Origin: Branchiostoma floridae
Lineage: Eukaryota; Chordata; Leptocardii; Amphioxiformes; Branchiostomatidae
Assembly (NCBI RefSeq): GCF_000003815.2
Contig: NC_049985.1
Span: 7,812,066 to 7,876,065, forward strand
Direction of reading: 5' to 3'
Length of the DNA: 64,000 nt
Shown: one piece after another, positions 31,001 to 60,211 of the stretch
How positions within the stretch are numbered: position 1 is the stretch's first letter
Layout of the letters: the number at the start of each line of letters is the position of its first letter
Notes under the pieces: generated by a model
Database searches by the model: none
What the model saw: only the letters and a program-made list of their open reading frames with translations
What the model was told of the DNA's origin: nothing
Made by a program: the position numbers and the translations under genes

Positions 31001-34000
31001 CAATCGCTCGTCCCTCTGAGATTTGAAGTGACTGATTTCGGTCAGCAGTAGCGCTGCGTCAAAAGAGATCACTTGACCCTGTATATTGCGCTATGGGAAA
31101 GATTGTGTCTCTTTGGACGAAATTTTGATTCCTGAAAGACAAAGATAGGCCGCCATTGTTGGCCTTGTCATCCGGTATATGAAGAACACATCCATCATTG
31201 GACCTGTGTAGTAAATACCTTTGCGCGCTCACGCGAGGGATTACCCTAACATGCCGACACGGAACGGCTATCGTTTAATGTCAGAACGTCCTTTGTTTAA
31301 CAACGTGGCAGTAAATATAAAGATATGATATGGTAAAAACACGGAACAAAGTCCCATGGAAGAAAAGGGACACAGGGGTTTTAAAAATCCGTGATTGTAG
31401 GAATACAGTTTCAAACATATTTTCGAGGCACCAGACTTAGTTGATGCACTCAGAAATTTTCACATTTCAGTGACGCTCACGCGAGGGATTACCCTAACAT
31501 GTCCACACGGAACATACATTTTATATCAATTTTTTTGTCAGAACACCATTTGTTTAACAACGTGGCAGTGATATAAAAACATGATATGGGAATAACAAGG
31601 AACAAAGTCTCATGGCTACAAGAGGAAGAAAAACACTGAGATTTTAAAAATCTGTGATTGTAGGAATACAGTTTGAAACATATCGTGACTCCAGATTTAC
31701 TTAAACACTATGAAATTTTCACATTTTAGTGACGTAAGGTTTTCTCAAATTTGCCAGAAAATGAGATGGCATCAGATATCCCTATCTTGAGTTGCAGATT
31801 TGTGTACAAATGTGTTGAAGTTCTCGTACTTGCGTGCCACATTTGCTGCTTTTAGACTAATCCGCATACTTGTTCTGAATTTTCCAGCTTTCCCGCGGCC
31901 GCTGGACAATGTACCAATTGGAAAACTGTGCCTCAGAAATCACCGTTTTATTTTACCACAAAGCCCTTTAGTAACTTTACTATAAATCTTTGTCCTCGAG
32001 GTTTTCATAGATAAGGGCACGGTCCAATAAAACAATACATGTAATAGTTATAGCTACAGGTAGCTGACTCCTAGCATGTCAGTACGTACCGAATTGAATA
32101 TTTCACGCACTATACTATAACTGCAGGTGCAAGGCGCGCTACATTCTGCAGACAGACATATTAAACTGGAATCTAAGAATAAATCAGAACCAGTCCAGTC
32201 ACGGAAATTACAACAGACAGTTTCGCGTGCGACCCTGGTCAAACTGACGTCAGAAGAAATACGAGATTTCCCCATGACAACTAAAAGACGTGGCTCTCTG
32301 CAGTGGTCTGGACTGTTGTCAGTGATAAATTCCTTCTTGACACAAAATACTGTTAAAACTAGAAAAACATGCAGCCTTGTTGTGATTCGCTTTTGTTAGC
32401 TGCCTTTCCAGACAATAATTGGACATTCTAAATACGTGTAGTGGTGTCGCGGTGATACATATGCATTTCTCTATTTTCAAACTACCCAAGGCACTGATCT
32501 ATAGGCGTACATACAGGGCAACAGCATTGAAAGACATGAGTAAGACTCTTTTGAAAGACAGGAGTAACAGCATAGTAGGGTTGACAGAGCATTGTTTAAT
32601 TGTCTGTATAACTTGCGGAGTAGAGCATTGCAAAGCATTGAGAACATAGACCGGTACAGGCTTACGTGATGCAGATATTTTCCTATGTATAGCTGAATCC
32701 GTGTTGTTGGGCCCGATCTGAGTTCTATGACACTGTTTTAAATCTGCGAGTAGGAGAGAGGATGTAAAATGTACGGTGTTCCTTTAATGCCAAACTCTCC
32801 AAAGGAATAGGGCGAGCCTAGGTACCACTTATGTGCACTTGGTATGGGATTTATGAGGGTCATTTTATATTGGAAAATGTCATTATTTTCTGTTATCAAA
32901 GACTCAATATTAGAGTGATGATTAATTCTAGGTAAACTGTGTACATATTTGACAAAACACTCTGAGAATTGAAACAGCGTTCGTGCATTTTGGTCATTGA
33001 TTTCGACTACAACTTCATTAAAAAAATTAAACATCTGAAAATAGCATGCCAGCACGTAGGGCCCAATAAAACAAACTGTATGTAGTCAATAATGATGACA
33101 CAAAGGTCAGGTAAAAATAGGAGAGGGCGTCCGCCGGAAATGACGTCCTCTCAACTTCCGGTGCTTGCAGGTGTTTCGTCCAGTATTAGATACAGTGTCC
33201 GGATATTACAGCCTGAAACTTGCAACCAGCCGAAATAATAAGTTTACAAAGGTTACATGTGACAACAATGTAACGGAATCGTTTAGAAGACGGGGAAAGA
33301 ATGCCCGACATCTTCGTGAACCTTTTATTTTGATTACCGCACTGGAAATGCAATAAATAATTCACAACTGTTGGAGCCCGAACGGTAATACCTAACATGT
33401 CCAGGACACAGGTGTCCGCATCCGGGTGATGAAATACCTATCAAGCTGATCATAGACGTAGACGTCACGCTGTTATTTTGGATCACTAACCTTAAGATAC
33501 TAGTATTGCACGATGTCCCTAAAAGAACTATTGTTAGTATCAAACATCACAGTATGTAGTAATTCTTGGTAAGCTTGCTGCACACGCATGAAGTACCTCA
33601 CAACAGAAAGAAAGTATTAGTCCTTAGCCTACCGTTACCTACTCTCCAAGCAGAGGTTGATGAGGAAAATCGTGACCTTTTTCTTGTACGCCGTCTTTTT
33701 CTGCCAGCAAACCCCTTCAGAAGAACACGACATATAAGACAAAAGGTGACGATTTTTGACATCAACCTCTGCGTGAAGAACAGGAAGTAGGCGGTCGTGC
33801 GATTTTGGTGTCGAGCGGCTGGAACAGGTCTAACAGCTCACAAGGATATAAACATCCTTAACAAGACACGGAATTCGTACGAAATATGTACGACTATTCA
33901 AGGAATACCTCGTAAGTTAATGATCGCACGACAATCGTACTACGATCTTACGACGAATGTGCCTGGGCCATCAAGCATACTGGCCAACTAAGGGTTACTG

Positions 34001-35758
34001 AATATATTTATATTTGCTCTCCGTGCCGAAGGTAACGCACACAATGTCGGCGTCTCCCTTCTCAAGGTTCAAGGTTTAAAGGCGCGTTGCCCATGTGATG
34101 TGATCATGGGTGACCTGACGGACACAGGGTTATCTCTGGCAGGCGGAACCTTGCCCCATGCAAAGAGCAATCAATGCGGGTGCAAGCTAGGCTTTGGGAA
34201 GGGTTGGTGTTGTTACGTAACGCCAAAGTACGAGGGCCCATCTTTGTCACCACATCCTATTTCGACAATCTTTTATCAACTAATTCAAAGTTATACTTGG
34301 TTCACATTTACAGGACTGTCACAAGTGCAAAACCACTGTATGTGCATAATGATATCAACGCGTAACTATGTTCGATAACACTACTTGTACTACTTGTATG
34401 TTAAAAACCTTTAATTTTGTAAGACCACCTTTTCACTAGATCGCTCATCAACCGTGCAGCGACCAAAATTCGATCAACTTATGTGGACCTTGATTTCATG
34501 ATCAGAAAATTATATAAAAGTATGATTAAAAAACAAAACAAAACAGATTGTTTAAGCGTTCAAAAGTTTCGTTCTGTATGATTGTTATGTAGTTTGTTGA
34601 GCGATCTGTGAAGTCTTTAGTCAGTAACTGATCGCAGCCTTTAGTAGGAATGGAGTGTAACAGTGTGTGTCTTGCCTTATCATACACTCTGCAACATCAT
34701 ATATAATCAGTTTAGAGTGACTGAAAGGACATTCATTGACTTCCCTTGCACTCGGCAAGAAGCACCAAACACCGCACTCATGTTGTTGTCAAAGTGGATG
34801 AGCTGTTTGCACTTCTGTTTCAGGGGGCAGAGAGATTAGACCAACTTAACGAGGCAGGGGAACTCAGGAAACTGTTGAGCCGGTTCGAAGTAAGTATTTC
34901 CTTTGGTTGACATGTTTTTATTCTTCCGTTGCTCACCTAACCGAGCTCACGTATGGACAATGTTTATGTAGTCAAACCCTCGCCGCCCTTTGTCAACTGT
35001 CCCGGCTAGTGCGTCCACCAATTTGCAGAGTTGATCATTACCAAATACCCGTGTTTAGACGGAAGTATGAGTGGCTACTTGTATGCCTGAAAACCTCCTG
35101 GCGGACACCTGTGAAAAGGGCTATAGTCACCATGTTGTCTAAAGAGGCGGCTTTAAGCAGAACATTTGTATGTAGATACACTTATAGTTCAGGGAAGGGA
35201 AGGGGAACAGAGATAAGATAAGCGGAATCAATGGAATTTGAATAGTGTAAGAAAAGCCAGGAAAAGGAAGAAAGCAAAGAAAGAAATCACGTATGAACAA
35301 AAAAGGAGAAGTGTATGTGTATGTGCGTGTGCTCATGTATCTGTTTGACTGTATGTGTGTGTGAGTGTCTGTGTGTTTGTGTGTGTGTGGGTGTGTTTCT
35401 ATGATTCCTAATATATACAATGCAGCGTTATTGCTGTTATTTCTGTCTATTTAGGGCTAGACGGGTCTCAAAGTAGTACATTTGTACATTTAATGTGTGA
35501 CGTCTGCCGTTTCTGATCACCTCGTTTCCCCTTTTCTTGTCTCCACAGAAAATCACGGTGCGGTCCCTGTGCGCACGGTGCGGCGGGTACAGGTACATCC
35601 CCTGCACGGTGTGTAACGGCAGCAGGAAGTCCGTGCACAGGAACAACTTCACGGACATGTTCCGCCAGCTCAACTGTACCGCCTGTAACGAGAACGGTCT
35701 GCAAAGGTGCCCCGTGTGTGACGAGGACATGGAGGAGGAGCACGTCAGTTATATATGA
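28026..35758 (+). CDS. GRXCR1: GRXCR1-like glutaredoxin domain-containing cysteine-rich protein, 4 exons, 310 aa
   Basis: Exons 28026-28442, 29638-29877, 34824-34889 and 35549-35758, all phase 0 and GT-AG, total 933 nt. The 139-residue N-terminal exon is Gly/charged-rich and poorly conserved. Exons 2-3 encode the glutaredoxin-like fold: [45 protein letters not shown] and [11 protein letters not shown]. The usual CxxC redox site after IVYTT is replaced by SMQV, so disulfide chemistry is unlikely. Exon 4 encodes four CxxC pairs (CARC, CTVC, CTAC, CPVC) in a DnaJ-like zinc-binding arrangement, with [20 protein letters not shown], the diagnostic tail of the GRXCR family. In vertebrates GRXCR1 localises to stereocilia and controls actin-bundle dimensions. 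Length is close to the vertebrate protein. Assignment between GRXCR1 and GRXCR2 is uncertain for a pre-vertebrate genome. Confidence 0.85.
29897..30095. repeat. Purine-rich GGGAGA microsatellite
   Basis: Imperfect GGGAGAGA/GGGAGGG repeats, entirely A/G on the + strand apart from rare interruptions. It begins 20 bp after the donor of GRXCR1-like exon 2 (29877/29878). Confidence 0.9.
31228..31734. repeat. Tandem duplication, two copies of about 250 bp
   Basis: Copy 1 (31228-31475) and copy 2 (31476-31734) both start CTCACGCGAGGGATTACCCT and share TTTGTTTAACAACGTGGCAG, TGTGATTG and a TAGGAATACAGTTT motif, ending with CACATTT.AGTGACG. Identity is roughly 80% by eye. It lies in the long intron between GRXCR1-like exons 2 and 3. 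Confidence 0.85.
33638..33793. mobile_element. Short MITE, AGCAGAGGTT family, second copy
   Basis: The left end CCTACTCTCCAAGCAGAGGT followed by TGATG pairs with a right end reading CATCAACCTCTGCGTGAAG and closing at GTAGG. The centre (about 110 bp) shows no coding capacity. It lies in the GRXCR1-like intron 2. Confidence 0.65.
35310..35400. repeat. TG-rich microsatellite
   Basis: Imperfect (TG)n with GTGTATGTGTATGTGCGTGT at the start and TGTGTGTGTGGGTGTG near the end, in the last intron of the GRXCR1-like gene. Confidence 0.85.
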
Positions 35759-41057: not shown

Positions 41058-44000
41058 TTATACTGCCTGTTGGGCCAGCTTGAGCTCCTGTCCGTGCTGT
41101 TTGCAGTAGATCTTCTCCTGGATGACCATGAAACTGCTGATGTCCAGCGTGCGCTTGCACACCAGGCAGCGCTGGCACTTCTTGTGGAAGAAGCGTCCGT
41201 CGGACTTAACCATCTCAGTCTGAAACGTTAAAAATAGAGAGACTTTTTAAATAATTTTCCAACCCTATGGACTGTAGTTTATTAAGTGTTTTCAAAGTTT
41301 GGTAGACTAAACTTTAAAACTGAAAAAAGAAAGGGTACTGGAGTGTTATTGGTATACTAATAAATAACAGGTGGGCAAAGGGATACTACAGCTTTTCAAG
41401 CATTACTTAAAACTTTAGCTGTCACTACACAACCAAAAAATCTATGAAAACATGGCATCTTCTGGTTACTTTTTCTAAATTGTACATCTGTAATATGGTA
41501 ATATCAAACTTGTCAGTGAGTAGATTTCATCAGCATTTCCTATCTGCATTTTGGTAGTAACGCAGCAAGTTGTTCAACAATGTGTATACTATTCACATTC
41601 CTGAAGAACTGTCATAAAAAAAAAGCTGAATTTGCATTTTCTCACCTGATAAACATTTTCGCTACACACGATGCACTTCTCAGGCTTGGGCAGGATGAAG
41701 TTCTTCTTCTGCTGCCGTGCCAGGAACTGTCCCGTCCGGTTCAGCTTGTTGTTGTTGGCCATCAGGTCACCAGACTTGGTGGGCGGGGGGGATGTACTGA
41801 CAGCTGGTTTGGACTCCGCTGGTTTGGTGGGTGAGTTGAGAGGTTTGGGCTGCTCCGGTGCCTTTGTTGCAGGTATGATGACGGGGGTGGGGGGTTCGGC
41901 GGGCCGGGAGAAGGGTTTGGTGGGGCCGACGGACGGTCTGGGAGCTGACGGCCTGGCCGTGACGGATCCAGTCTTTTCTACAACCTGTGCAAGGTGACCA
42001 AAATGGTTTAACATCAAACAGAAGATCAAACAGAAGTCTGATTTACATATCATTTCTATGCACAAAGGCTTTTTACATTGTGTACAGAAATAGCAACGTA
42101 TAAAATCTTTTGTGTCCATTGCTGACACAGATGGACTTTCATTTGAACAGAAGTCTGACTTGTACAGGTATCCTCAGTATTAAAATATGGCAGTGAAATC
42201 ATTCAGTACTTCCTGGAATGAACGTAATGCAATCTAGAATATAAACTAAATGTATACAGTACTAAATTTTGTAATTATTGATACTAGACTATTACCAATT
42301 ATTGAACTATCATCAATTATCAAATGAATACTTAAGGAAAAAAATAACTACATGTATTTACCAAATGTGACCTTTATTGGCATATGATGAAATAATTGAT
42401 ATGTTTCTTTGATGTAGATAGGTTGAATTGACATACTTGTACAGCATAGCATTGGACTATTGTTTTGGTATGTCACATAGCATGAAATTTGAATGAAAGT
42501 TCAATTCATTTGTGATGGTAGTTAACATTGTGCAGATTTTAATGCTATTTGTGGCCACAAATAAATCAATCCTCTTATTCTTGTCATTTCAACTGGAGAG
42601 GGATCAAAGAGCTTCGTGAAAGTTTGTTGCTGGTAAGAGATTTAATTTGCATTTAGAAATAGCATATAAAACCTCTACAATAGTGCCAAATTTTATTCAT
42701 CCCATGGAGCAACTCTGTTAGAATTTGACATGAAAACAGAAAAAAATTCTAGACTCCTCTACAATGATTATCAGTTTGGCAAGATTAATGGCATTATGAT
42801 TAAGAAAGTTGTCTGTTAGAAGGGCAATCTGCCAGAAGAGGCAAAGCAAAGACGTATTAAAGAAATAAAGTACGAAATAAAGAACAATGATTGTCAATAA
42901 AGATCCTGTTTGTAAACAATATCTACATTACTACATTGTACAACAAGGGCCTTCTGAAGACTGACCAACACTTTGGGTGGCACGGCACCGGTAGATGGTT
43001 TGCGGGCGGGGGACTTGGGTGGCGGCTGGCTGGACGACGCGGCAGGCGGTGTCTTCTCAACCACCTGTCGCAGCAGGTAACAGTTTCAACCACATTCAAC
43101 ACTTTAGGCTCATGTCAGCACAGCTCTGTGTAATGCTTCATCATCAGATATCAGTGCTTTTATCTTGGGGTGAATTTGGGTGGAATTATAACCTTCTTGC
43201 TGCAGAGTTGGCCCTTAGGTACCAGGCATGTACCAGTTACCAGTAAGGCTTAGGTCCCAATTGCCAGTGCCCGTCACAGATGTAGTCCGGGCCGGGCTCC
43301 GAAGCCACAAATTTGTCCCAGTGAATTGCCGGATACCGGGGGTACCCCTTCCAAGGGTAGGTCACGGTGTCTATTTGTTACCGGGTCCCGGTTTTATTTT
43401 AAGTCTGACTCGAATTTAACCCAGGCCCGACCGGTCCCCAAAGCACTTAGTGTAGTACCCTGGAGAGCCGAAAGGTGTCTTACAGGCTCACATGACTGTA
43501 AGTGCCAAAAAACAGTCCGTGAACTACCCTATCGCAGTAGGGCCCTTTTTTCCATTGGGACCTAAGCCTAAGTCAGCAGGGAGAAGGTACAGGTAGCCTG
43601 GATACCAGTGCTGTTAGGTTTTAGTTTGCTCAGTATGTTGGCTAATATGTCAGGTTCTATGAAGTGAACAGAGAGCTGAAGAGGGCTGGTATCCAGGCTT
43701 TAGAGGTGATGTGTTAAGTGATATGATTTACATCTCTCAGTAAGTATTTCAGTAGTGAGTGCAGGTGGACTTTGCAGATAGGTAAAGGTAACATTAGGAC
43801 TAGCTTAGATTTTGTGCAGTGAAATATTCGTTATACAGTTATAAGATAAGGAAGTACACTGTGCAAGAAATAGTATGATATATTACACTAATGTTGTACT
43901 GCAAATTTCACACTTACCACAACCTTCTTGCCACCAACTGCAGCAGCATCCTCATCCTTGCCTCCTTCCCTCTCCTTCTGTTTTTTCTGTGCTATCCTTA

Positions 44001-47000
44001 CCCAGGCTGGTATCTTGTCATCACCCTGGTCTTCCAGCGCTTTGATGGCACCAAAAACCTTCTTAGGCTGGGGTTTGTCTGCCAGTGACCTAGAGTAACA
44101 TTTACGGCAAAGTGCAGGTAAGTACGTATTAGGAAAAACACACCTAAACTGTCATGTAATACAACAATTCAGTTTAGATGGTCTGTAATTGACCAGCCAC
44201 CCAGCCATACTTTCCTACATAGTGCTAAGTTACAACATTGGAAGGTCTGTGGTATTCAAATTTGGAAATTTACCTTCAGGTTTCAAGTCTTGTGAAGAGA
44301 CATACAGATTTAAGTTTGCCAGTAATTGTGTGACAATTTTGATTTTCATATCTTATGTATCAAAACTGACCTTAACTGGGGTGCAGCAGAGGCAGTAGGG
44401 GACATTGGGGAAGGCACCACAGGGGTTGAAGAAGGCTTCTTCACCACTATGGTCTCCTTTGGAGTCTCCGTTTTTGGTACAATTGGCACTGGCTTGGTGG
44501 GCTGGGAGCTGCTTGGACTCGGCTCCACTTTGGGTGGAACTGGCTTGAGTTTGGGCCTGATGACCGCCTCGGTTTCTGGGGCCGGGGGATCGGCCCTCGC
44601 AAACATCTGCCTTGTTTCTGCAACACTGAGACGCTTATTATGGACGGGTACATCCGGGGGCTTTGCAACAACCTCTTCGTATTCCTCCAGGTCATCTTCA
44701 GATGGAGTGGTTTCATCTTCAACCGGACCGTTCTGCTTTTCTGTTTCCTTTTCAGGCTCTTCTTCTTCAGGAGGCTCCTCTTCAACCGGAGGAGCTTCGT
44801 CCTCAGAGGACACTGTCTCCTGGCGGGTTTCTTCAAGGTCGTCTTGTGGTTCATCTTCCACCTTCTCCTCAGCCTCCTCCTTCTCTTCCTCCTCCACCTG
44901 CTGCACTGCACCATGGGTATCTTCCTGCAAGGAATTGTGGGAATCTTCATACATCCCATGCTGCTCCTCTTCTTGGTTGGTCTCAGGCGTGGCCACAGCT
45001 GGGTCTTGTTCTTCAGCAGGGGGGACCTCCATCTCAGCAGCAGTTTCTTCTTTTTCTTGTACTGCCTCCTCGGGCTCTTCAGGCGGGGGTTCCTCCTCTT
45101 CAAATGAGTCTTGCTTCTTGACCGACTGTTTCCTCTTCATCTCCTCCACCAGCTGCTGGCCCAGCGGGTTGGGAGGCCCTCGGGTTGGGGATTTGGGAGT
45201 GATGAGGTCCTGGTCCTCGGCTTCAGGAGAGGCTGGAGTGGGCTGATCGGGCAGGTCTGACGGAGGGGGTGAGCCTGGACCGTGCTCCTCACCTGCATCA
45301 ACACGAAACAATCATTGATGCCCACATATACCAAATACTGATGAGAAATATTCTATATCATGAATGTGTATAGCATGATATATTCAGTACACAAAATTTC
45401 TTCATTTGGTTTCTTCTTCTGATTATGATTTTGCCCATTTGTCTACTGTGGACTTGCAGAACCTACAAATTTATAGATTTGTATAGATTTTTGAAATTTA
45501 TGTCATTTTTAGAATACAGTATACAATGTTTCACAGCACAAAGGAAAATAACTTCAACACAGGGAAACATGAAATACAATTTTACAAGACAAACAGAAAA
45601 ATATGGGTTAAAGAACACACACAAAAGATAAAACATTAGTCACAGCGTCACACAAAAACACAAAGAAACTACACTACAGAAGGACATATTCATTCTGCAC
45701 AAAGGAAATGGGTTACATGTAGGGTAATGGGTACATTTAGGACAGATGACCCAAGGTATTGCATTGCTCATTGATATTGCCCCCCTTTACCCAAAAATTG
45801 GCAGGATAAAACCTGATATTCCACTAAATGCACCATTTTTTAAAAACTGTCTATGTCCACCTCTGTTGCCAAAGGGACTTGTGTGGCAATCTTTTATCTC
45901 AGCTAAGGACATTCAGTTCTGTATGACAGAGCATAAAGGATTTAAACTCCCTCTTCTCTTACTCAATACGACATACACTATTGAGTTTATTGTCTGTTGT
46001 TCCTCATCTTGTGAGGGTTAGATGTTGCTTGCACACAGATGCTGTGGTCTTAATCTAATTCACTTATTCTGTTTTCTGGTTGAAGAGTGAGGACTGAAAG
46101 TCAACAAGGGCTAAGTCATCAAAGTGAGCATGCTTACATACTCACATAAAGATAATTTCCATCACTATACCTGACAATGCCAATGTTTTTAAAGGAAATG
46201 AATTGAAACAGGAGTATCTATCTAACAGCAGAATACTACATTGTAGTACAATATCAGTCATAACTTTTAATTGCATGCATATTTATGTTTGTGCTAATGA
46301 CTTTCTTTTATATGTGCAAGTTTGACAATCTGCCTAGCAGTTGCACAAGCCTTTCAACCTATTGGAGGAGTTACAATGGTGCAAGTGTAGTTTCTTTATG
46401 TATACTTGCTGGTCTGAGGGCGCAATGTTATTTCTGAAAGTGGGAGGGTGGGAAGAGAGGTGATTGGCAAACTTGTCAGGTGTATTGTTGTTACCTCCCC
46501 CTGTGCGTTCTTGCTGTGCAACAACAGCCAATAGTCTCTGGGCTATTGCCTCCCCTGTATCTTCATCGGTGGCCTGATCTGCACTGCCTGCAGCACCTGA
46601 AGCGCCCAGCAGGGGGCGACGATGTATGGTGGTTATGTTATTGCTTGCAAATGTTTTTCCAAACTGAACCAAATGCACAGGTGAGGGCTTTCTGATAGTT
46701 GAACATCTACATGTGGCAACTGATGCACTACAATAGGGGATGGACAACACTGGAATAGTAGACTACAGAAGGCAACTTGGGGTAACATAACGATGGGACT
46801 GACTGATATTCACTACTGTTGGTATTGTCACATCTACAAACACCCCCATAGTTACTGTACTGACTTTCAACAACATGTTTGAAAAAAAAATCATGGCTTA
46901 CAGTAACAGTGCTCACAATGGTCACAAATCCAATCCAATCCAATACAATACAAAAACCATCGCTACTCTTCTCACTGAAGATGATTTTGAAGAAAATGCC

Positions 47001-50000
47001 TGTGATGAAATTAACAATTATAGTACAATGCTTAACTTTCTTCCAACACAAAAGTACACACAGAGCAAACTGTTGCCTTCTTTAGGATCAATACGTGTGT
47101 ACTTTTGTGTTGGAAGAAAGTTTAGCATTTGTACTATGACTACTACCAACACAGATGAGCTTCCATGATATAAACAATTGTTGCAGCTGCGTTTCTTTTG
47201 TAAGAATAAGAGAACTGCCTACCAGATGAGGATGCTCCAGAGTCTCCTGCCTCCTCCTCCTCCTCCCCTCCCCCTGCTTCATCCTCCATCACACCGTCAT
47301 CATTCTGTTCAGGCTCTTCAGCTGGGGACTTACCTAGACTGTCTGTAACAAACACAGGAAAAACATCCATGCTCAGAAGTAATTAGGTTTTGCTGTTGAA
47401 GCTCATATTATTCAGGCAGGTGTAAGAGAAAAGTTGCATTTCTTAGGAGGCTGTGCGCGATGTGATGCTGTTCATTTGCCAGATGACTTAGAACTTTATT
47501 AGGATGTATTGTGAAGAACAGGATAATTATCAGGACAGGACATGAGTACATGGGAAAGAAAGGTTGTCTCGTAAGACAGCAAAAGCATCCATTCTTGCAA
47601 TCATCACCTTGGATTCAGCACCGTGGACATGGACAGCACATTTTCGAGGGTGATTTTTCTGCCATATTTTGGGCATGCATTAACGGCGGTGTATATGACA
47701 TAGAAGAGAGAGCCAGCAAGGGAATATCATACCAAAACCATTTTCACCTTCCACAATCTCAACGCTACTAGCATCAGTGTTCACTACTGACTCCTCATGT
47801 GAGGCTACTACAGGCATCTCCACGGAGGCTTCTACTTCTACAGGAGGACAGAACTCCACCACTTGCTCCTCCAGGAGTGGCCCCTCTTCTCTGGTGGGTG
47901 TGAGAGTTGGGACAAAGGCATCTGTGTGGAAGGGACAGGTTTAGTAGTTGTCATTTCACCCTGACCATTTTGATTGGGTGAACGGCTCACTACTGTAATC
48001 AATGAGTTCTTGCTATTGAATCCGATTGGAGAGAAAGAAAATTAAATTCGATATGAAAGGAGAGGTGGTTGTGTATGTGCACATGGTTTAAATCAAACTG
48101 AATTCATGAAAAGTAGAAGTGTTTATCTGTGGCCTGACATAAGGGTGATGTCTTTATTTGTGAAAAATTTATACTGATTTTAATCAAGTTCATGTTTTGT
48201 TTATTCTTTTCATCGAATATTACAGTTCTATACATATTGCCATAGCTACTCCATTTAAGAAGTTTGATGGTGTGGCAGAAAGGGGAAGTTTTTTTAATGA
48301 TTTGATTAGTAACAGCTGGGGGTAATTGCAGTTAGCAGGTGGAGACTCAGCACCTGGTTCCAGCTGGTCTGCTGTAGGTTCAGCTGTAGGTTCAGGGGAC
48401 ATTTGGACTTCCTCCACACTTTGGACTGACTGTGCCGGGACAGATTCAGCTGTGTCAGCTGTACTGTCAGGCGGAACAGCATCTGACATGGCATCAGGTG
48501 GAATGACTTCGTTCTCCGTAGCTGCTGTGTTGACAACTTCGTCACTTTCAGTTTGGTGCCCTACAAGGTCTAATCAGGATTTAGGGAAAATGAATAAATT
48601 TATCTTGATAAGATCGAGGAAAACTGACTTGAATCAAATGTGAAATGATTTGGCAGTCAACTGAGATAAAACGTGATGTTAATGTTGTTTATTTGGCTTT
48701 TTGATTAGGTGGCAGATAACACTGAACATGTTGGCACCTGAGGGCTCTTGTGGATGGCCAGCTGCAGATGTGACATTTGCCTCTGAGTCAGCGTCTGTGT
48801 TAGGTGCTTCAGCTGCAAGCATGTCGCTAGCTGCAACATCAGCTGCTGCTGTTATCTGTGTGTCAGCAGTGGTGTTGTTGTCAGGTGCAACAGCTGTGGG
48901 TGGGTCAGCTATTTCAGGGCCATGATCTGAAGCAACAGGTGCATGGGCTGTTTCTGTGGCAGGTGATGCAGCAATGGCTGTTTCTGTGCCAGGTGCTGAA
49001 GTAGCAGCTGTCTCTGTACCCGGTGCTTTAGCAGAAGCTGTTTCTGTGCCAGGTGCTGTAGCAGGAGCTGTTTCTGTACCCGGTGCTTTAGCAGAAGCTG
49101 TTTCTGTACCAGGTGCTTCCACACTGGATCCGGCTGCAGCATCTGCAATTGTGTCAGCCATTTTACTGTCAAGCGCTACAGCTGTGGATATTTCAGCTGT
49201 AGCTGTGCCAGCTGGTTCTGATGCAGGTGCATCAGCTGTAGGTGTGTCACCTGTCTTGGTTACAAGTGATTCTGATACAGGCATACCACCTGTTATCTTC
49301 TCAGGTGCTATGGCTGAAGATGTATCACCTGTGCCTGAAATGGGTACTTCTGATTCAGGTGCATCACCTGTTTTGGGTGCTAAAGCTGAAGGCGTGTCAC
49401 CTGTGTCTGCTACAGTTATGGTTATGTCAACAGTTTCTGTGGCAGGTGCGGGAGGGTCACTGTATTCTGCCACATCCTGAGACACGGACGTTCTTGGAGA
49501 GTATGTCCCTGAAAGGCCAACATGTTTCCAAACACTGAGGTATGAAGATGGGCAGTCAAGCACTCAGCTTACAGTCAATATTAAATTTAAAGCAGAACAG
49601 CTTGCACTGATTTTAAATCATTTCTCTGACAACTTTGTTTATAAAAAATGTTGCCCAATCATAGTTTGTTGATCTTTGCCATCTGCTGCTTTTACTTCTA
49701 AAGAAAGTTGTTGAAAATTATGTGATTAACAGGGAGTTTGCAGCTCTGAGATATTTCTTTTCATTAGAAAAATTGATGTATTAGATTTCTTCAGAGATTA
49801 ATACCAATACAGTAACTTTTGTACCTTCCGAAGAAAAGGTCCACAAAATCTCTCACTGTACTCATTGTACTATAAGTCTACGAGAGTAAAGTTTAATCAT
49901 AAGTACCATAGTGTGCTATATACAGCCCATGAATATAGTAATAAATGTATGATTATTTATGATGTATAAAACAGACATCAAAGCAGTTGAAGAGACTGTG

Positions 50001-53000
50001 CTTGTGTAGAAGTAAAAGTGTCTTGAGAGGAAAAGGAAAAGATGGAGCACCTGTCCGAGGAGGTTTGGGAGGTGGTTCAGTGTCTGCAGGTGTCACCGGG
50101 GGTTCAGGAGAGTCAGCTGTACAAAACACAGCCCCAACCATGCATTGAACAACAGAAACAACAAAGGTTCCAAACAGTGTTCTAGCCAGCCTAAAATTTG
50201 TTTCCATTGCCTGGATTTTGAATGGTAATCCTGTCAACAGTGCAACAATACTAGGGGGTCTGGGTGTCTGCTCCCCGGGAAAATTTTATAATGTAGGACT
50301 CTGAAATGCTATTTCCTTTATTTTTGGAGCAAATGTTGCTGGTAGACTCAAATGGGTTCATTTACCATCCCCAGCAGCAAATTTCTGTCAAGAGACGAAG
50401 GATGGCTGCTGACTAGAACTCTGGTTCCAACTGAAGAGCACAGACAGAGTTTAAACAATCTTGTGACAAATGGTTGAAAAGTACATTTTACTCCTTATAT
50501 AGCAGGTACAATAAGTTCAAGATATAGGTAAATTTAATTCAAAAATTAATGTGTATCGAATTCGAAGTCATCCATTACATATCAATCCAGGTGAACACCC
50601 CTTTAACATGAAGATTCCAAAAGTATAACCTCTCTACTAACCTCTCCCAATGGCCTTGTCTCCTACACAAGGCCATTGGATAGATACATACAGGGTGCAT
50701 GTATATGGAAAACTACAGATCCACTGTAAAAGGTGTTAAAATCTTTCTAAGATGTATTTTTAATGACACCCACTGCAAGAATGATTGATAACTGAAACTC
50801 TCTTAACTTTCCTTAAAACATGATGTTCAGAAACTGTTCTTGGAGCAATAAAAGAATTATTTCGAATGGTATTTGCACAGAACACTCACTTAAGGACTCT
50901 ACATTTTGAATGTGAATGACACTGTATCAGGCTGTACTGTATATTGATGTGTGCAGAAGTAAAATCCCATGTAGTGTGGTACATTACCTGTCCTGGGGCT
51001 GTCTGACATGATGGGCAGGTCTGGTGTTGGGCTGGGACTCTACAAGAGAAGAGCAACACTCAGGGTTCACTTCTGTCACAGTGACGTTCTACGAATTCAA
51101 TTTCATGCATGTCTGATCAGCTACCTCACACTGGGAGTTGATTGGCTCTTCAGATCAAAAGATGAATGACGCAGAATGTTCCCGACATGTAACAAAGCAG
51201 TAAATTCTGAAATGTATGCTACATTTTATTGAACTAACATTGGTGCAATAGACAAATTTGAAGCACACCAACTGTTTTTGTCATGGGGGATTTTGTCCAC
51301 AAACTGTCTGTGGCATTGCACAAAAAAATGGAAAGCATTTGAACAACATTCACAGAACCCATAAAAGCAGGTGTTTGGTTACAATAATATAGTGGGATTG
51401 ATGAACTATCATTTGCAGTTTATCAAATAAAGCCGCTTGTCCAGCTGGATTCAACACAAGTGTCAAAGCGACAGCAAGTGAAGTATTATGAAAAGCTGAA
51501 AGAACTGCCCGATCAAAAAACATTACGTGGATGGAAGGGGGAGGGTTGTAAGTACTGGCTGTGTTCGTTCCACATGTTGTTCGAATATGTTCTATTAGTT
51601 ACAGAGATTGTGACATAATATAGACAGCAAATCCTTCCTACAATGAAGACAGTTTGTGTGGTTCAAATTCATCTAATGGTAAAACAGGTCATGTTTTCCT
51701 TCCCTACTTTACACTTGCAAGACTATGACATAAACATTATCTGATAAACTGGATGGTTGAAAACTGGCAGGTGAATTAATTGATTTTGGAGAATTGTTTA
51801 TTACAGTCGTGAACATTTTCAGGCCTGACTCTTCCAGGTTCAACCACACATAACCTGCACGGCAGCTGTGACGTCAGTAGTGAGATAACATGCCTACTGA
51901 GATGACACATGATAACTCCCAATGGGAGACAAAATGAACAGGATGTCCTCAGGTGATCTATCACACTTTTCTCGCACAAAGATAATTCAATGTCACACTA
52001 TGTGACTGTGCAATAGTATGGAAATGTGCATTAAACCAAGGGTACTTAAAGATTAAAAGAAGAAAAACAAAAATTTCTTGACTCTGAAATATTGAGTATT
52101 CAAAAACATGCCAAGAATTCAACTGTACTTCAAGTTTTAAGAAAATGTTCAACCCTGATATAATTATGCTATAGAAAGGGCTTGCAGAGACTTAGGACAC
52201 TCTAGACTGTCAGCTCAATGTTTGGGGATGGGAACACATTGGACAAGTAAAACAGTCCCTCCACACTTCTTGACAATGGTAACAATACTCAGTATTGACT
52301 ATGGAACAAAAACATAATGTTTGCTGGTAAGTTGCATCTGGGGCAATTAATAACTGCATTAGTGCTAAATGACATGCCACTTGTGCTTGAGCCCTGTTAC
52401 AAGGACAGTACAAGACTCTCAATGTAATACTTCAAATGCAAATACATTTCATTTAAAAACTAGAGTTCGGGGACCTCATACCTCCATGAAATATTTATTG
52501 CTTTTTTGTGGATGGTATGTATGTTTATAGTCGGTTGTATTTGAGAGTAATGGTTACAAATGTTATGGGAAAGTAGTGGTGTATTTATTTAATGACACAG
52601 AGGATGTCCATCTGATTAGTAATTATTAAAATGGGACACTTAATTGTGTAATGTGCGTTTAAGAGGTCGACGGCATATGGTAGCGTGGTGTTCCTTAAGC
52701 TTGATGTTTGGCATTTAAACTGTCTAAGGTTGTCAGCATTATTGAGGTTCGACTATGTGCCTCAGAGCGGTGTGGTGGGAGGAAGTTGGGAAACTCAAAA
52801 AGAAGAAGGGATGTGGCCAACTTTAGTCAGATGGTGATTTGATTTTCCAACAATATGTCATAACATCAGCTGTTCACACGGTACAAAAACAAGATGCACA
52901 CTTTCCTCTGACAGCCCTACACCAACTGTAAGATGAAAACTTGGCGACAACCCTGTCTGCTAAAAAACAAGTACCATTGGCTACGAAAGAGACAACTAAC

Positions 53001-56000
53001 AACTGTCCCTTATCGTAACAAAATCAGAACATCTGTATCGCCCATGAAACTTCTGACACCCAACCCAGATGAGAGGACCTGATGGCTGTTTCTTCGTATC
53101 CGAAGATCAATGGTAGGCAGACAGGTTGATTAGACGACTAGTCTGCCTGGCCTGCACGTGAATTTTTTTTTAAGGTGAAGGAGGGGTGTGCACTTCCTTC
53201 TCCACCCTCTCGTCTACTGGCGCACTAAGTCCTACAGGGACAGAACTGTTTGCCACGTAAGACGGCCCCAGCAGATGCAGGTTTATTATTTGGAGTTTCC
53301 ATCTCCTAGGAGGACTTCCGACCAAGAATGCAAGGGGTTCCTCCTACCCCTGACTCGTGTGTCATGGCGGGTGCGTCATGCCCGAACATGCCCTTATGGC
53401 CTGTCACCACAACAAGGGCCCGTCACTAGCCACTAGCCGCAGCTATCTACTCATTTACACCTAAGTTAGGTGAGGAAAGTCGTGTAAAGTGCCTTTCCCA
53501 AGGGCACAAGATCGGTGACACGGCAAGCGGATTTGAACCCAGGACCTCTCGGGCCTGAGACCAACGCGCTCCCGATCGTGCCACGCGGTCCCACATTGAG
53601 AGGACCTAATGGCATTTTAATCACCATGTCACTCAAATCAGCAGTACAGTATGTGAGACATCCATACCTGTCAAGCATTACCGTTAAATGTACCTCAACT
53701 TCTTACAATTATACTTATGCTTCACATCTCCATGATATCCTAAGCAGACATAAATAAAACTAATTATCATATTCAAAAAACCTTGGGGTTCCCCAAACAG
53801 CTGTCACCATCTGCTTGGAGCTAAGCCCATTAACAAACACATAAAGCACGATGCCTGTACCAATATATCTCAAATATAGGGGTGATTTCTGATATTATTA
53901 CATCGATTATAACGACAGATACGGCTCCCAAAATCTCATCGATTCAAGCTTTCATCACACCCCACCAACACAACAAGTATGAAACCAATCCATCCAGCCG
54001 TTCTTGAGTAATCATCTACACAGACAGAGACACATAACAGAAAATATAACCTCCATTCCATGACATTTCATGGAGGTAATCAACATAAATCTTGATCAAA
54101 CTTACCTCCTATTTAGATTCTTCTAATTACCTTCTAAGTAGATACACACAGGTTCTTTGTACAATATTGTACCAGAAAATTTTACAAATGTTTATGGAGC
54201 AAGATCAAAAAATGAAAACAGCTTAAAACTACCATTCCTTAAGGGGTGCTGCAATTTCCAGTATCATGCAAGTTGTGTAAACAACAACATGTATGGATGC
54301 CATTGCTGAAACATCCAAGGCACCCTACATGCTACATATACAAGTACATGCATGCAAAAGACCGAAAGTCGTGTTGTCTAATATCTTGCATCACACCACA
54401 GGGCATTTAGGCACTGTAAATTTCTTTTTGTTGCAGGGACTTAATTTTGAAGGAGGGGGGATGTTTAGATGTGTTTCAAGATCACAGTTGGAACAACTGT
54501 AATCCAGTGGTCATGACATTGCAGACTGAGGACAGACCAATTTGAAAATTGTAAAAAATAAATTCTCCGTGAACATTAAAAGATCTACAGGACATAACTG
54601 TTACCTTTCCGACTCCTCTGGTCCTACTGGAGGCTTTTCTGAGCTTGGGTGCGACGGAGAGTTTGTGCAGAGCAGCCTGGTTACTCAGGTGGGTGGGTGA
54701 GGCCGGGATGGCGTCGAGGTCAACGTCTGGGAGGGGACCAATCATGATCATAACCAGTCAATATACAGGCATTCTCTCATTTCCTTATAGATGTACTCTT
54801 ACTTCCAATTCTTAGAGGGAAAATGTTAAGCTGGCTTTAACATAAGAAGAAATTTTCATGTTTTTTTGTCAATGAATGGACCAAAATTAGACTGCACCTT
54901 GGCCTAACTGGTTCTTGTAGGCAGTTGAAATTTATTGTCTAAAGCAAAATTTATATTGTGAATAATGTATTTGCTGCTTAATTGAGTAGAAGTTCACAGC
55001 TAAGTGAGCAACTTAAGCATTTTCATTTTGAGTAAACACCTCTGATGCAAGAGTAGATAAGAATGTACTGCTATACAAGAAGAAATAATTTTTTAAAGAA
55101 TTGATCTTCCGGTTAGAATAACACTACCAACCTCACAGAAAATGGTTCAATTTTGCACATCAAATATGATATTAGCCCTGCTCTCCATAGAAAATAAAGC
55201 AGTAACACCACAGAGTGCTGCACCTACCTCCTGTGCTGACAAACTCTGCAGGCACACTGGTGCCTTGTCTGGCTTGGTGTTTTTCTCCCTGTGCTAATTG
55301 GTCTGCTGCCATGGCAATGCCGGGCTGGGGAAAACACAAAAACACCAAAAACGGGCATCATTGCAAGGGCACTTGCAAGTGTATTGAATTATACAACCCA
55401 AGGCAAAGGTAAGGTGTTTTTCAAAGGTTTGTGACTTAGCATGTAACATTATATTCAAAATGCCTGGGGCTACTAAATATTGCTCTATATATATATATGT
55501 ATAAAAAACTTGTCTTGGTATTGATAAACAATTTAAGGTACAGGTGTTTAAAGCAGTGAGTTTGTTCACATACAGATTTGCATGTAGGTGTGTTGAATTA
55601 TCCAACCCAACCTAAAGGAAAATCTTTTTTTAAAGATTTGTGACTGAGTGTATATATTCAAAATGCCTGGGGCTACTGAATATCGCACTATGTATAAAAA
55701 ACATGTCTATTTTGATAAACAATTGAAGGTACATTGTACAGGTGTTTAAAGTAGTTTGTTTACATACAGCTTTGCATGAATCTGTATGCAGCTACGTTAG
55801 CTGTAGTCTTTGTCACAAACTGTGTTATGTTTTGAAAGAAAAACAACAACAGGAAGTAGATGATGTTAGCCTTTAGCATCTTTACATCTACACTGCACCA
55901 TGATACTAAGACACAATGTAAGATTTGCTAAACTTGCTCTACAGAATCTTGCAGAACGATCAAGCAAGTAGGTGATGACAATTAATCTGATACATCTATC

Positions 56001-59000
56001 AATACCTACCTCATCTCCTACACTTTCTAAACTTTCTTCACTGTGTCTTTTCATTCCATTCTGAAAAAGAGGATATCTACAAATTAAATAGGCATATTTA
56101 AACATGTTTATCTTAAAGTTAATGATATAAATCATTATAATTTGATATCAAAAGATCAAGAGAAAATGGAAAGTTTTTAAATCTAACATATGAAACATAT
56201 GGAAAATAGACTCACATAAATATAAAAGTATGAAAGCCGTTATACTGTTAGAAGATTTGAAAATTCATACATTTGTATTGTGATCCTGTGTTTTGCTTAT
56301 GTTGGTCAAATGGTTTGTAAAATGTACTCTAAGAAGACAACTGAGAATCAGACCTGTGTACTGTGTTCATTGATGACATCAGCCATTGTTACTATAGTGT
56401 CGGGACTGCGGGGAAGACACTCGTCTTCTGAGCTGGCCCCGTCCTCACTTCGACGGGACTTCAGCTTTGCTGACAATTCACTCTGTAACAAACAAACAAA
56501 CGTGTGGCAAAATTCAGTCACATTCAATTTCAATGGATATGACAAGCTTATACAGCTTTTTCGTAACCATTTGTTCCAATCAACTTACTAAAATTTTACT
56601 CAAGAGATGCCAAATTTCAAAGAAAGCTTCATACTTAATCTCATACATTCTTTGTTCATTCAGACCCTTGTTGTGTCTAGTGGCACACACAGCAGCAAGT
56701 TTCATTGCTGTTTCATCAGAAGGGTATATCTTTTTATATGGAAGAGTTAGTAGCCATTCTCGTTTAACATACTTGAAGCACCTCCTCGAACATAGGACAC
56801 CCATTTTAGACGTGTGCAGCCCCAACCGAGTTTCCCAATGCAGGATTGAACCGGGGTCTCCCAGTTACCAATTGAAACCAGGAGCTCAACAGTGACACTG
56901 CTACCACTTGACCTACAAGGACGCTCCCTATTATAATTGTACAGATCTATATGCTCTTTGCAAATTGCAACGTGTCAGCACAGGGTGACTACGTACCTGG
57001 AAGTTTTGTGAGTTAAGGTTGTCGGCGGACGCTGCCATGTCACCCTTCCTGAGTGGCTCTGTCTGCCCGTTGGCAGGAGAGAAGACACTGTCTGCCGACA
57101 TGCTCCGGTTGGCCAACGTCTTGTTACTGGAAACAACAACAAAAAATATAATGTCTGGAAATGGTAATATAAAATTTCAATTTTACTAAAGGCAGCTTAT
57201 GCAATTTTAGATCATTAAAATTGGAAATATTCTGGATAATAGAATCCGATAATAGAATCCGAATTTGTATCGTGATTATTTTTTACTTTGAGCGTTTAAA
57301 AAGAACGCACAAACATGCCGAAAATGGACCCCTTTATTTATTGTGGCCTACAATAAATCAGCACAGGATCGAGCCAGTAACTCATTGGTAATTTTCTGTG
57401 ATTTCGCGTTAGGTCACTGAGTGCATTGAATGTGATTCACGCATTTGCAAATCGAATCTGATATATCCCTCTCTGGCAATACCTAGTCTGGTAAGACATA
57501 CAGTATGGGAAAGGAAAAGAATAATGTCATAACTGATATTATGAAGTAAAAAAAAAACTGTTTCTCCAGCCTAACCTGACATCTTCCTCCGGCTCTGTCT
57601 CCACCACCTGCAGCAGTGCACCTGTAGACTTGGACACGGGCTTGGCCGACAGGAGGGCAGGGTCATCACCAGACTTTTTTCTCCCCTTCTTGATTCCCAG
57701 GATCTTTCGTATAGACTTCAGCGGACGGAACTTTTTTCTCTTGACATCTAAGAAAGAGAAACAAAAGTCTTATTCAGTACGATATGGCTGTATATATATA
57801 TATGTATACCATAGTCAACAGTTTTTGTGTGTGCCTAACTTCTCTGGATAAAACATTATGATGAACTCTAAGATACATATGAAGTTCAATTTATTGTTGT
57901 ACTCGTAGCAGCAAATGACATATGATGGAAAAGGTAAAAAAATCCAGCTTAAGCCTATGTACCTACCACAACTCAACAAACATTTTCAGACTTCCTTAAA
58001 GCTCCCATGGCCCCTCATATCTCTAAGCTGATCCCTCCCAACACCTTATGTATACAACTTTATTTGTACAATACAGGTGTTACTGAACAAATTATGCTCA
58101 TGACTCATTTTTAATGTTTTGTGTGTTTTGTTGTATACCATTGTAGGGGAGCAAGAATGTACACTCTGCTTGCCTGAATACAACTAAGGCTTAGGTCACA
58201 ATTCCCAACCCAGGGCCTGGCTGGGTAGCTTTCAGAAACAAAAAAATCTGATATAAAAGGCAACAAAACACACAGAACGAAAACAAAACTAGTCATGGGC
58301 ATAATCTGTGTATATTCCTTGGTGAACACTTTAATTTTTATTTTCTGCAAACTTCCTGGCTGGGCTCCAGTTTGGAAACAGGACTTAAGCCTAAGCTGGA
58401 CAGATCTGGGATCTATCCCCTTTATTCAATTCTAATTACTTTATCAATAATGAAATAGAGATTGGTCCTTTGGAGCAGAAAAGTGTAGTGATGACACGAA
58501 AGAAGAAGATAAAATTCTCGCTCCTCATCACCATAACCTTCCATTCCCACAAACTGTCAGCCGGGTGCCCCACAGATTGTAAAAGTGACCCTAGAGCATT
58601 ACAATCAAACCTGAGGTTACTGTGACCTCTGACCTGAACACACCTGAGGTATGCAGCATTGTTTGCACAGTGTTACAGGTGCCAACATGTATCATATTTG
58701 ACCAGCATAAAGAAGGGCATGCCTTTGTTATCAGTGTACAGGGAGGAACTACCTAACGATCATTCCAACAGGTCCTAGAGACTGGAATTTTGGTACATCA
58801 GATTGATGAGGGGTGGACCATTATATACCTAAGGGACAGACTATTAGTATTATATGCCTAAAGGGCTAACCTCATATACCTAGGGGAAGGATCTATGAGG
58901 GGTAGACCATCATATACCTAAGAGAAGGATTATTTAAAAACATAATGTATGGCAGTTGAGGTGCACAGTTGCGGGATAAAAATGGGAAAATGGGCATAAT

Positions 59001-60211
59001 GCCACACAAATCCTTGAAAATTTTAGCGCAATCTGCAGACTTTTGGGGTTAGATGGAAACATGTCTAAGCTATGAAGAAGACCCTTGTGACTTTCTAGTG
59101 GCAAAGAAATTCGGGTTTTACGAAGCCTTGTTTTAATGTATTCTAACATGCTTTCCTTACCAGTCCTAACTGCGGCATCCGTCCTCAATCTAGCATGTAA
59201 CCAGGAAGTGTTGCTAGCATTATATTTGGACAACAGTTATTGAATCAGCTTCCTGCTTCAAAATTTCTAGATAAAAATAATGAAAATTTTAATAGAGATT
59301 GTCCTTTATTATGATCTTCTTTTGCATAAAAGATTAAATAATTTTTTAATGAAAAAAAGGATAGCAGGTGAACATTTGCTCTGAGATATCAGATAATTTC
59401 AGCCTATATTGTCCCAAGGAGGTCTATATACTATAGAACAATTATTTACATGTTAACCATTACAACCTCCTTGATTACACATGGGCATGTTCGGACAAAG
59501 TTCGTCATCCCTGACATAACACAAACAGTGCGACAGATTTTGAGCAATGACAGAACCATCTGCTATCTCCCTATACAAGGTTTGAAATCAATAAAGGTTA
59601 ATATTTGATTCTAGGTCTTGCCATTGATATCAGTTCACCTGTAGTCATTTCAAACAAAGTTTCCTTTGGATGATTTATTGACAATATACATATCTACATA
59701 TACAAAGTCACAAGGACTATGAAATGTAGTTTCCATTCCTCAGAAGATGGGACAAGAATTGACAACCCTAAAAGCCCCTTCTACATTCTAGACATAACAT
59801 TCACGGTACGACCATAACAATAATTGTACATACAATGATAGCAATATAAGATTCATATTTCTTTCCTGCTATTATTGTATGTGAATGATGATTACCAGAA
59901 TAAGCTAGAATTAGTAGAAATATAGGATTGTTCAACTTCTGAACCAACATGTCAAAAGTAACGCTATGGGATTGATGAAAATACAGTTAAGATGCTAGTA
60001 CTTTTGGTGCAAGTTTTAAGTGTAGAGACAGAGAAGAGGTGACTGTGTGGCATTTACCTTGTGTGTTCCCAGCTTCTGTGCCATCTAATACCACCACACC
60101 GTCTGTCACTACGAGTACTTCTGCCTCAGCCTCTGCCCCAGCCTCCGCTCCAGCCTCTACTACTGCCTCCTCTCCTTCTGTCTTAGTCTCTACTGCCCCT
60201 TCAGCTGACAT
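41058..60211 (-). CDS. CRACD/KIAA1211-like actin regulator with C-terminal LIM domain, 19 exons, 1351 aa
   Basis: Exons on the - strand: 60211-60058, 57747-57576, 57126-56997, 56482-56354, 56060-56010, 55324-55228, 54726-54605, 51039-50988, 50116-50051, 49508-48738, 48560-48354, 47921-47733, 47342-47223, 46596-46495, 45292-44371, 44089-43918, 43064-42966, 41984-41646, 41219-41058; 4056 nt with all phases matching. After an acidic start (MSAEGAVETK), exon 2 is a basic patch (KRKKFRPLKSIRKILGIKKG). RSMSADSVFSP, VDLDAIP and ALHKLSVAPK (residues about 120-275) resemble conserved N-terminal motifs of vertebrate CRACD/CRACDL (DUF4592). The middle is acidic and Pro/Ala/Thr-rich. KVFGAIKALEDQG and PAWVRIAQKKQKE fall near 1110-1140. 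Residues 1289-1340 are a full LIM domain: C-x2-C-x17-H-x2-C-x2-C-x2-C-x17-C-x2-H. Known CRACD inhibits capping protein; that role here is inferred. The family call rests on remembered motifs. Confidence 0.7.
43247..43568. mobile_element. PIF/Harbinger-like MITE, GGCTTAGGTC family, copy 1
   Basis: The ends GGCTTAGGTCCCAATTG and CATTGGGACCTAAGCC are inverted repeats, and TAA flanks both sides (43244-43246 and 43569-43571), the 3-bp target duplication expected of PIF/Harbinger elements. The 322-bp body is GC-rich with no transposase. A second copy with the same ends and flanks is at 58188-58391. It lies in an intron of the CRACD-like gene. Confidence 0.8.
47020..47137. repeat. Near-perfect hairpin, 42-bp arms
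   Basis: The left arm (47020-47061, containing ACTTTCTTCCAACACAAAAG) pairs with the right arm (47094-47137) with one mismatch and one bulge; the loop is about 32 nt. It lies in the CRACD-like intron between exons 47223-47342 and 46495-46596. It could be a small MITE or a transcribed hairpin. Confidence 0.85.
48945..49115 (-). repeat. 30-bp coding repeat in the CRACD-like gene
   Basis: Within exon 48738-49508 about six consecutive 30-bp units encode APGTETASAK-type decapeptides (variants APGTETAPAT, APGTETAATS, SPATETAHAP). DNA units share CTGTTTCTGTGCCAGGTGCT on the + strand. The array is in frame, so copy-number change would not break the protein. Confidence 0.9.
53163..53592 (-). mobile_element. 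tRNA-derived SINE
   Basis: On the - strand the element begins GGGACCGCGTGGCACGATCG, with box A TGGCACGATCGG (53583-53572) and box B GGTTCAAATCC (53539-53529), 33 bp apart as in a tRNA. Downstream comes CTTGTGCCCTTGGGAAAGG, resembling the conserved central domains of widespread metazoan SINEs, and the element ends in an A-run (53170-53163). It lies in the large CRACD-like intron between exons 54605 and 51039, in the same orientation as the gene. Confidence 0.75.
53953..54061. repeat. Dispersed repeat tail, copy 2
   Basis: CACACCCCACCAACACAACA, then ATGAAACCAATCCATCCAGC, CCGTTCTTGAGTAATC and AAAATATAACCTCCATTCC parallel copy 1 at 26001-26109 in the same orientation. Confidence 0.5.
55379..55790. 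repeat. Tandem duplication, period about 209 bp
   Basis: Copy 1 starts GTGTATTGAATTATACAACC at 55379 and copy 2 starts GTGTGTTGAATTATCCAACC at 55588. Both contain TTCAAAATGCCTGGGGCTAC and TTGATAAACAATT, then GGTGTTTAAAG. It lies in the CRACD-like intron just upstream of exon 55324-55228. Confidence 0.85.
56740..56929 (-). mobile_element. tRNA-derived SINE, second type
   Basis: On the - strand the element starts GGGAGCGTCCTTGTAGGTCA; a box A-like stretch TAGGTCAAGTGGTAGC (about 56917-56902) precedes box B GGTTCAATCC (56852-56843). The body after box B differs from the SINE at 53163-53592, so it is another family. The 3' end is not sharply defined. It lies in a CRACD-like intron between exons 56997 and 56482. 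Confidence 0.6.
58188..58391. mobile_element. PIF/Harbinger-like MITE, GGCTTAGGTC family, copy 2
   Basis: The left end GGCTTAGGTCACAATTCCC and right end GGAAACAGGACTTAAGCC are inverted repeats with some decay, flanked by TAA at 58185-58187 and 58392-58394. At 204 bp it is shorter than copy 1 (43247-43568). It lies in the CRACD-like intron between the first two coding exons. Confidence 0.75.
58795..58932. repeat. Short degenerate tandem repeat
   Basis: About four units built on CATATACCTAAGGG with GATGAGGGGTGGACCAT spacers, in the CRACD-like first coding intron. Confidence 0.6.

Follow-up and report, generated by a model that had tools for sequence, protein, structure and literature searches.

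An amphioxus gene model that joins a CRACD-type DUF4592 region to a C-terminal LIM domain, with one gene favoured over two

Introduction

CRACD is a recently found tumour suppressor that acts on heterodimeric capping protein: it binds and inhibits CAPZA and CAPZB and promotes polymerisation (PMC12795832). Here we describe a candidate relative in a 64,000-nt stretch of the Branchiostoma floridae genome (contig NC_049985.1, positions 7,812,066 to 7,876,065; hereafter, the window), where a chain of exons on the minus strand, running from 60211 to 41058, is predicted to encode a protein with the CRACD-type domain DUF4592 at its N-terminus and a LIM domain at its C-terminus. To our knowledge, the vertebrate CRACDs have no LIM domain. 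We read the locus, with a probability of about 0.6, as one gene for a single-copy CRACD-family protein comprising DUF4592, a low-complexity middle, a Pro/Lys segment and a C-terminal LIM, that is, a capping-protein regulator equipped with a docking module.

For mouse Kiaa1211 zebrafish orthologues have been named, and a dating tool yielded an "ortholog" in Proteus, which looks like an artefact; section 3.1 of the same paper does not mention invertebrate relatives (PMC6617212). Capping-protein interaction motifs follow the CPI consensus LxHxTxxRPK(6x)P (PMC4598739). LIM proteins, in turn, have been divided into 14 classes, of which the EPLIN class is characterized by a 22-residue motif C-terminal to the LIM, the CRP class by a glycine-rich motif of 15-20 residues in the same position, and the LMO7 class by a LIM accompanied by CH and PDZ domains, with some members lacking both (PMC3305314). 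That survey covered nine species, amphioxus not being among the proteomes, and left 59 proteins unclassified, so a relative of the protein described here could be among them.

Results

DUF4592 and LIM domains

A Pfam scan of the full model with E-values up to 1 lists two families, DUF4592 and LIM. DUF4592 (PF15262) is matched by residues 161-278 with 39 bits (curated cut-off 27, E 1.3e-9), and the match spans positions 14-123 of the 124-position profile. Exons 4-7 alone score 45.7 bits, and 47.0 bits if exon 5 is left out. Taken singly, exon 4 (56354-56482) matches profile positions 14-45 (E 0.0024), where the domain starts, and exon 7 (54605-54726), carrying DLDAIP and HKLSVAPK, matches positions 91-123 (E 6.1e-6), where it ends, so that the order of the two is correct. 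Hence the CRACD similarity, which the original prediction had claimed and had tied in advance to a significant DUF4592 match, is supported. A putative N-terminal fragment of CRACD also aligns to exon 7, with none of 500 shuffles as good. The search of the unspliced genome with the DUF4592 profile gave no matches, and as 14 control genomes were silent too, this has no weight either way. Among PDB sequences the N-terminal 324 residues have no matches at E up to 10, and exons 16-17 have a single chance match (E 5.6).

The LIM domain occupies residues 1284-1335 (35.5 bits with the cut-off of 22.9, E 1.2e-8). It is encoded by exon 18 (41646-41984), which contributes a linker and zinc ligands 1-2, and exon 19 (41058-41219), which contributes the other ligands and the stop codon. 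All eight ligands are present in the arrangement C-x2-C-x17-H-x2-C-x2-C-x2-C-x17-C-x2-H; a complete C-terminal LIM in the same predicted protein had been proposed earlier, and both the Pfam score and the ligands agree with it. The last ligand is followed by 11 residues, GQELKLAQQAV, with one glycine. The highest PDB likeness is to CRP-type LIMs, namely, CRP1 (E 5.9e-17, two domains summed), CRP2 LIM1 (E 1.9e-10) and MLP (E 4.6e-10), with EPLIN (E 3e-9) and LIMD2 (E 5e-8) next. As to the class, the 11-residue tail is too short for the 22-residue EPLIN motif (a comparison of lengths, not of motif letters) and has no glycine-rich motif of the CRP kind, and neither CH nor PDZ is found at E up to 1, which does not exclude the LMO7 class, some of whose members lack them.

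Exon chain

The exons were rebuilt from the raw sequence of the minus strand. The chain consists of 19 exons and 4,041 nt including the stop codon, corresponding to 1,346 residues, with the ATG at 60211 and the stop codon ending at 41058. All 18 introns are GT-AG and phase-compatible, and each of the 19 exons is richer in GC than the 400 bases that flank it. The ends, the number of exons and the phase thus agree with the earlier claim of nineteen exons joining in phase, while the middle exons are weak.

The N-terminal part starts with the Ala/Glu-rich exon 1 (60058-60211), preceded by an in-frame stop just upstream of the start codon, and continues with exon 2 (57576-57747), containing the basic patch KRKKFRPLKSIRKILGIKKGRKK, exon 3 (56997-57126) with the SMSADSVF motif, the weak 17-residue exon 5 (56010-56060) and exon 6 (55228-55324). 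At 3,565 bp, the intron that follows exon 7 is longer than any other in the model. A blind scan of the 54,590-50,050 region for an exon that could link exon 7 (phase 0) with exon 9 (phase 1) yielded two candidates, of which the exon 8 candidate (50988-51039) outscored the other; it takes the frame from phase 0 to phase 1 over the large intron. Within this intron, the 53001-54000 segment has a CpG observed/expected ratio of 0.65, a value close to that of the 57-58 kb region (0.68), whereas the kilobases on either side have 0.31 and 0.27; the peak might reflect an internal promoter or the insertion of a repeat.

The middle of the chain includes the Pro-rich exon 9 (50051-50116; PPPKPPRT), weak and with a negative score, the Thr/Ala/Pro-rich exon 10 (48738-49508) and the weak exon 11 (48354-48560), followed by exon 12 (47748-47921), the acidic exon 13 (47223-47342) and exon 14 (46495-46596). 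Donor scores are near zero for exons 4, 9, 10, 11 and 17. As all of exons 9-14 are of the phase 1-1 type, phase is no test of them. Exon 10 contains a 30-bp coding tandem repeat (48947-49117, 5.7 copies) encoding APGTETA-type decapeptides, whose length may differ among individuals.

The C-terminal part starts with exon 15 (44371-45292), acidic and then Pro-rich, followed by exon 16 (43918-44089) with KIPAWVRIAQKKQK and the Pro/Lys-rich exon 17 (42966-43064). Antisense to exon 15, a 306-residue open frame on the plus strand (44326-45246) is the second longest in the window and probably is a by-product of Glu-rich codons.

One gene or two

We ran a gene finder that makes no use of homology, its training set being 1,208 codons from other open frames of the window, in ten settings. 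A single gene with ends at 60211 and 41058 is recovered in seven of them: in all five settings of the first set and in two of the five of the second set, these two being both settings with gene cost 4. With the gene cost set to 8 and the intron cost to 6, the top score is 175.7 for a parse as one gene and 168.9 for a parse with a forced break. The best parse of the opposite strand scores 44.3, and Markov controls give zero in 10 out of 10 cases; from this gap we conclude that the locus is more than a chance arrangement.

All seven one-gene parses contain exons 1-3, 6, 7, 12, 13 and 15-19 in the model frame, exon 7 being shortened in three of them. Exon 4 is shortened in six of the seven (the finder ends it at 56393), exon 8 is found in six, and exon 14 in three. 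Exon 5 is found in no parse at all. Parts of exons 9 and 10 are used in a non-model frame in three of the seven, the same three adding three non-model exons, and in three other one-gene parses both exons are absent. The gene finder was therefore dropped as support for the exact 19-exon model: it backs the ends and most of the exons, and not exons 5 and 9-11, so that the continuity of the gene is at most favoured.

Several observations weigh against a single gene of this composition. Three of the ten settings, those with a gene cost of 0 or 2, divide the locus into three to five genes. All seven one-gene parses read the exon 11 segment in a non-model frame. The exact 19-exon model scores only 77.4, well below the best forced break (168.9), mainly owing to the atypical codon use of the repeat-rich exon 10 (-75.9). 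The score increases to 153.2 without exon 10, to 168.7 without exons 9-11 and to 171.5 without exons 5 and 9-11, all these chains being open and in phase and the last one retaining 981 residues; the lead over the best break is then only 2.6. Finally, one of the putative CRACD stretches compared with the protein fails to align (482 of 500 shuffles as good). Exon 10 may well be coding despite its codon score, as its open frame is long (294 residues, the fifth longest in the window) and its tandem decapeptides explain the odd codon use, and we retain it as possible.

The best-surviving rival explanation is that of two adjacent genes, a short CRACD-like gene consisting of exons 1-7 and a terminal exon at 53400-53362, and an acidic LIM gene starting at about 48.5-48.8 kb. 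Such a split is what the gene finder makes in three of the five settings of the second set, at gene cost 0 or 2, with the first gene ending at 53362 and the last one starting at 48482 or 48839. The position of the model's largest intron, directly after exon 7, and an ATG upstream in the open frame of exon 9 also favour it, as do the score of the forced break, above that of the exact model, and its small distance from that of the reduced chain. On the other hand, all seven settings with gene cost 4 or more prefer one gene, phase across the large intron is restored by exon 8, and the N-terminal product would stop 12 residues past exon 7, whereas vertebrate CRACDs extend much further.

Moreover, exon 16 shows likeness to the C-terminal part of CRACD, which serves as a lead only. 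The putative human CRACD fragment PAWITLALQKQK aligns to PAWVRIAQKKQK of exon 16 (4 of 500 shuffles as good), a putative CRACD tail also falls on this segment (14 of 500), and the whole putative C-terminal piece aligns to exons 16-19 better than all 500 shuffles; PAWxxLAxxKQK is presumably a C-terminal stretch of CRACD. If the likeness is genuine, a CRACD feature would lie beyond the large intron, on the same side as the LIM. Taking both sides together, we consider two adjacent genes unlikely, if a serious competitor.

One gene whose LIM exons form an alternative 3' end, most of the protein being LIM-less as in vertebrates, would be permitted by the junctions among exons 16, 17, 18 and 19, all of phase 0, but seems improbable, exons 18 and 19 being present in all ten gene-finder settings.

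The sequence thus favours one continuous gene between the DUF4592 and LIM parts, speaking only mildly against a break somewhere from exon 7 to exon 12. The two domains, in this order, are joined by an open, in-phase exon chain, from which we infer that they share one transcript.

Copy number and genomic neighbourhood

Homology searches covered the 513.4-Mb assembly (431 contigs), with only the best candidates scored. The N-terminal 324 residues produce nine matches at E up to 1, all on the gene's own exons, and exons 16-17 produce two, both at this locus. Of the 13 matches of the LIM tail, two are at this locus (E 3.4e-30 and 8.9e-24) and the other 11 at different places (best E 5.7e-5). At this sensitivity, both ends of the predicted gene are single copy and located only here, apart from remote LIMs. 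Among the LIMs elsewhere in the genome, the closest two are 39 and 40% identical, and from their KGNYDEGFG tails, judged by eye, we take them to be of the EPLIN class. We considered whether the LIM was recently derived from one of the EPLIN-like genes of this genome and rejected the idea, as there is no close copy and the intron, by eye, is located elsewhere. In two collections without animal genomes, 178 pattern-matching stretches for exons 4-7 (genome_contigs) and three for the LIM tail (viral_contigs) were found, none of them confirmed, a result with no bearing on animals.

The neighbours include an EamA transporter, a RING-finger gene whose NHL match stays below threshold, and, beside the CRACD-like gene, one of the GRXCR1/2 type (29497-35758, plus strand). 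Two open frames of this GRXCR-type gene match glutaredoxin (E 3.2e-12) and GRXCR1-2_C (E 2.5e-15). In human, GRXCR1 and CRACD are both on chromosome 4. A wider shared linkage with that chromosome was rejected: Rpb2-type matches are on contigs C4, C10 and C12, SAICAR synthetase matches on C5 and C6, and none on C7 (25.95 Mb), where the window is located.

Further features of the region include two matches to mir-2060, an amphioxus microRNA family, on the minus strand (21207-21300 and 21753-21845), situated in or at the edge of a tandem array of approximately 43-bp units (21215-22023), so the mir-2060 family may overlap a satellite-like repeat. An open frame on the plus strand (1997-2323) resembles, by eye, the helix-turn-helix part of a mariner-type transposase. 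Just past the right end of the window lies a 440-residue frame without introns (L016, 6234-7556, plus strand), which is rich in Lys and Glu and has a hydrophobic stretch at its C-terminus.

Discussion

The predicted protein would start with DUF4592, continue with a long acidic, Pro/Thr/Ala-rich low-complexity middle and a Pro/Lys-rich segment, and end with the LIM. By analogy with vertebrate CRACD, its N-terminal part may bind and restrain heterodimeric capping protein, so that actin filaments would keep growing, and the single LIM could dock the protein on a partner, e.g., a septin or an adhesion protein, placing the uncapping at junctions or bundles. Two points speak against this assignment. 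The function of the whole protein is derived by analogy, and the strict CPI consensus is absent: the best candidates match three of its seven positions, a result equalled in 500 of 500 shuffles, and such matches occur at nine places compared to 9.5 expected from shuffles. HKLSVAPK, with its promising spacing, was tried as a CPI motif and dropped as no better than shuffles. Capping-protein contact, if kept, would thus be of another kind.

For the LIM, tension binding had been suggested along with actin binding, and published data weaken that suggestion. The single LIM of XIRP2 is cytoplasmic when alone and is not recruited to strain sites (PMC10259482), and the LIM of EPLIN is described as not binding actin, while binding of SEPT9 was shown (PMC11077590). 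On the other hand, a different C-terminal part of XIRP2 is recruited to strain, and several LIM proteins are cited as mechanosensitive (PMC10259482). By analogy with the XIRP2 and EPLIN LIMs, a docking module seems likelier than a tension sensor.

If a single transcript is borne out, a CRACD-type protein changed its parts during chordate evolution, and capping-protein control was coupled with a docking domain either in a single lineage or already in the ancestor of chordates. The partners of that domain would then be candidates for proteins with which vertebrate CRACD may now interact in trans, and the LIM superclass would gain an architecture. A possible, if speculative, scenario is that CRACD in the ancestor of chordates carried a LIM and coupled capping-protein control to docking, that the vertebrate paralogues lost the LIM, and that this LIM belongs to a class outside the 14 described (PMC3305314). 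In the open-licence literature, judged by titles and abstract openings, we found no fusion of CRACD or KIAA1211 with LIM; searches of the same literature for DUF4592, PF15262 and KIAA1211 with amphioxus, and for putative CRACD peptides, returned nothing.

Compared to known systems, the protein is closest to the vertebrate CRACD and CRACDL (KIAA1211, KIAA1211L) in its N-terminal part: DUF4592 is common to both, nearly the whole profile being present in amphioxus. The amphioxus protein also has the SxDSxF, DLDAIP and HKLxVxPK motifs of vertebrate CRACD, and differs by its C-terminal LIM, which the vertebrate proteins are not known to have. Many coding exons are seen on both sides, with 15 and 13 in the mouse genes (PMC6617212).

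In the LIM, the locus resembles the EPLIN class (LIMA1, XIRP2, LIMD2), having a single LIM with His as the eighth ligand in an otherwise low-complexity protein, and differs from it in that no KGNYDEGFG-like tail follows the LIM. Moreover, an intron interrupts this LIM early, while the EPLIN-like exons of the same genome seem, by eye, to end after CxxCxxxLR. CRPs, in contrast, have Cys as the eighth ligand, and from that class the protein is distinguished by one LIM, the lack of a glycine-rich tail and His in the eighth position.

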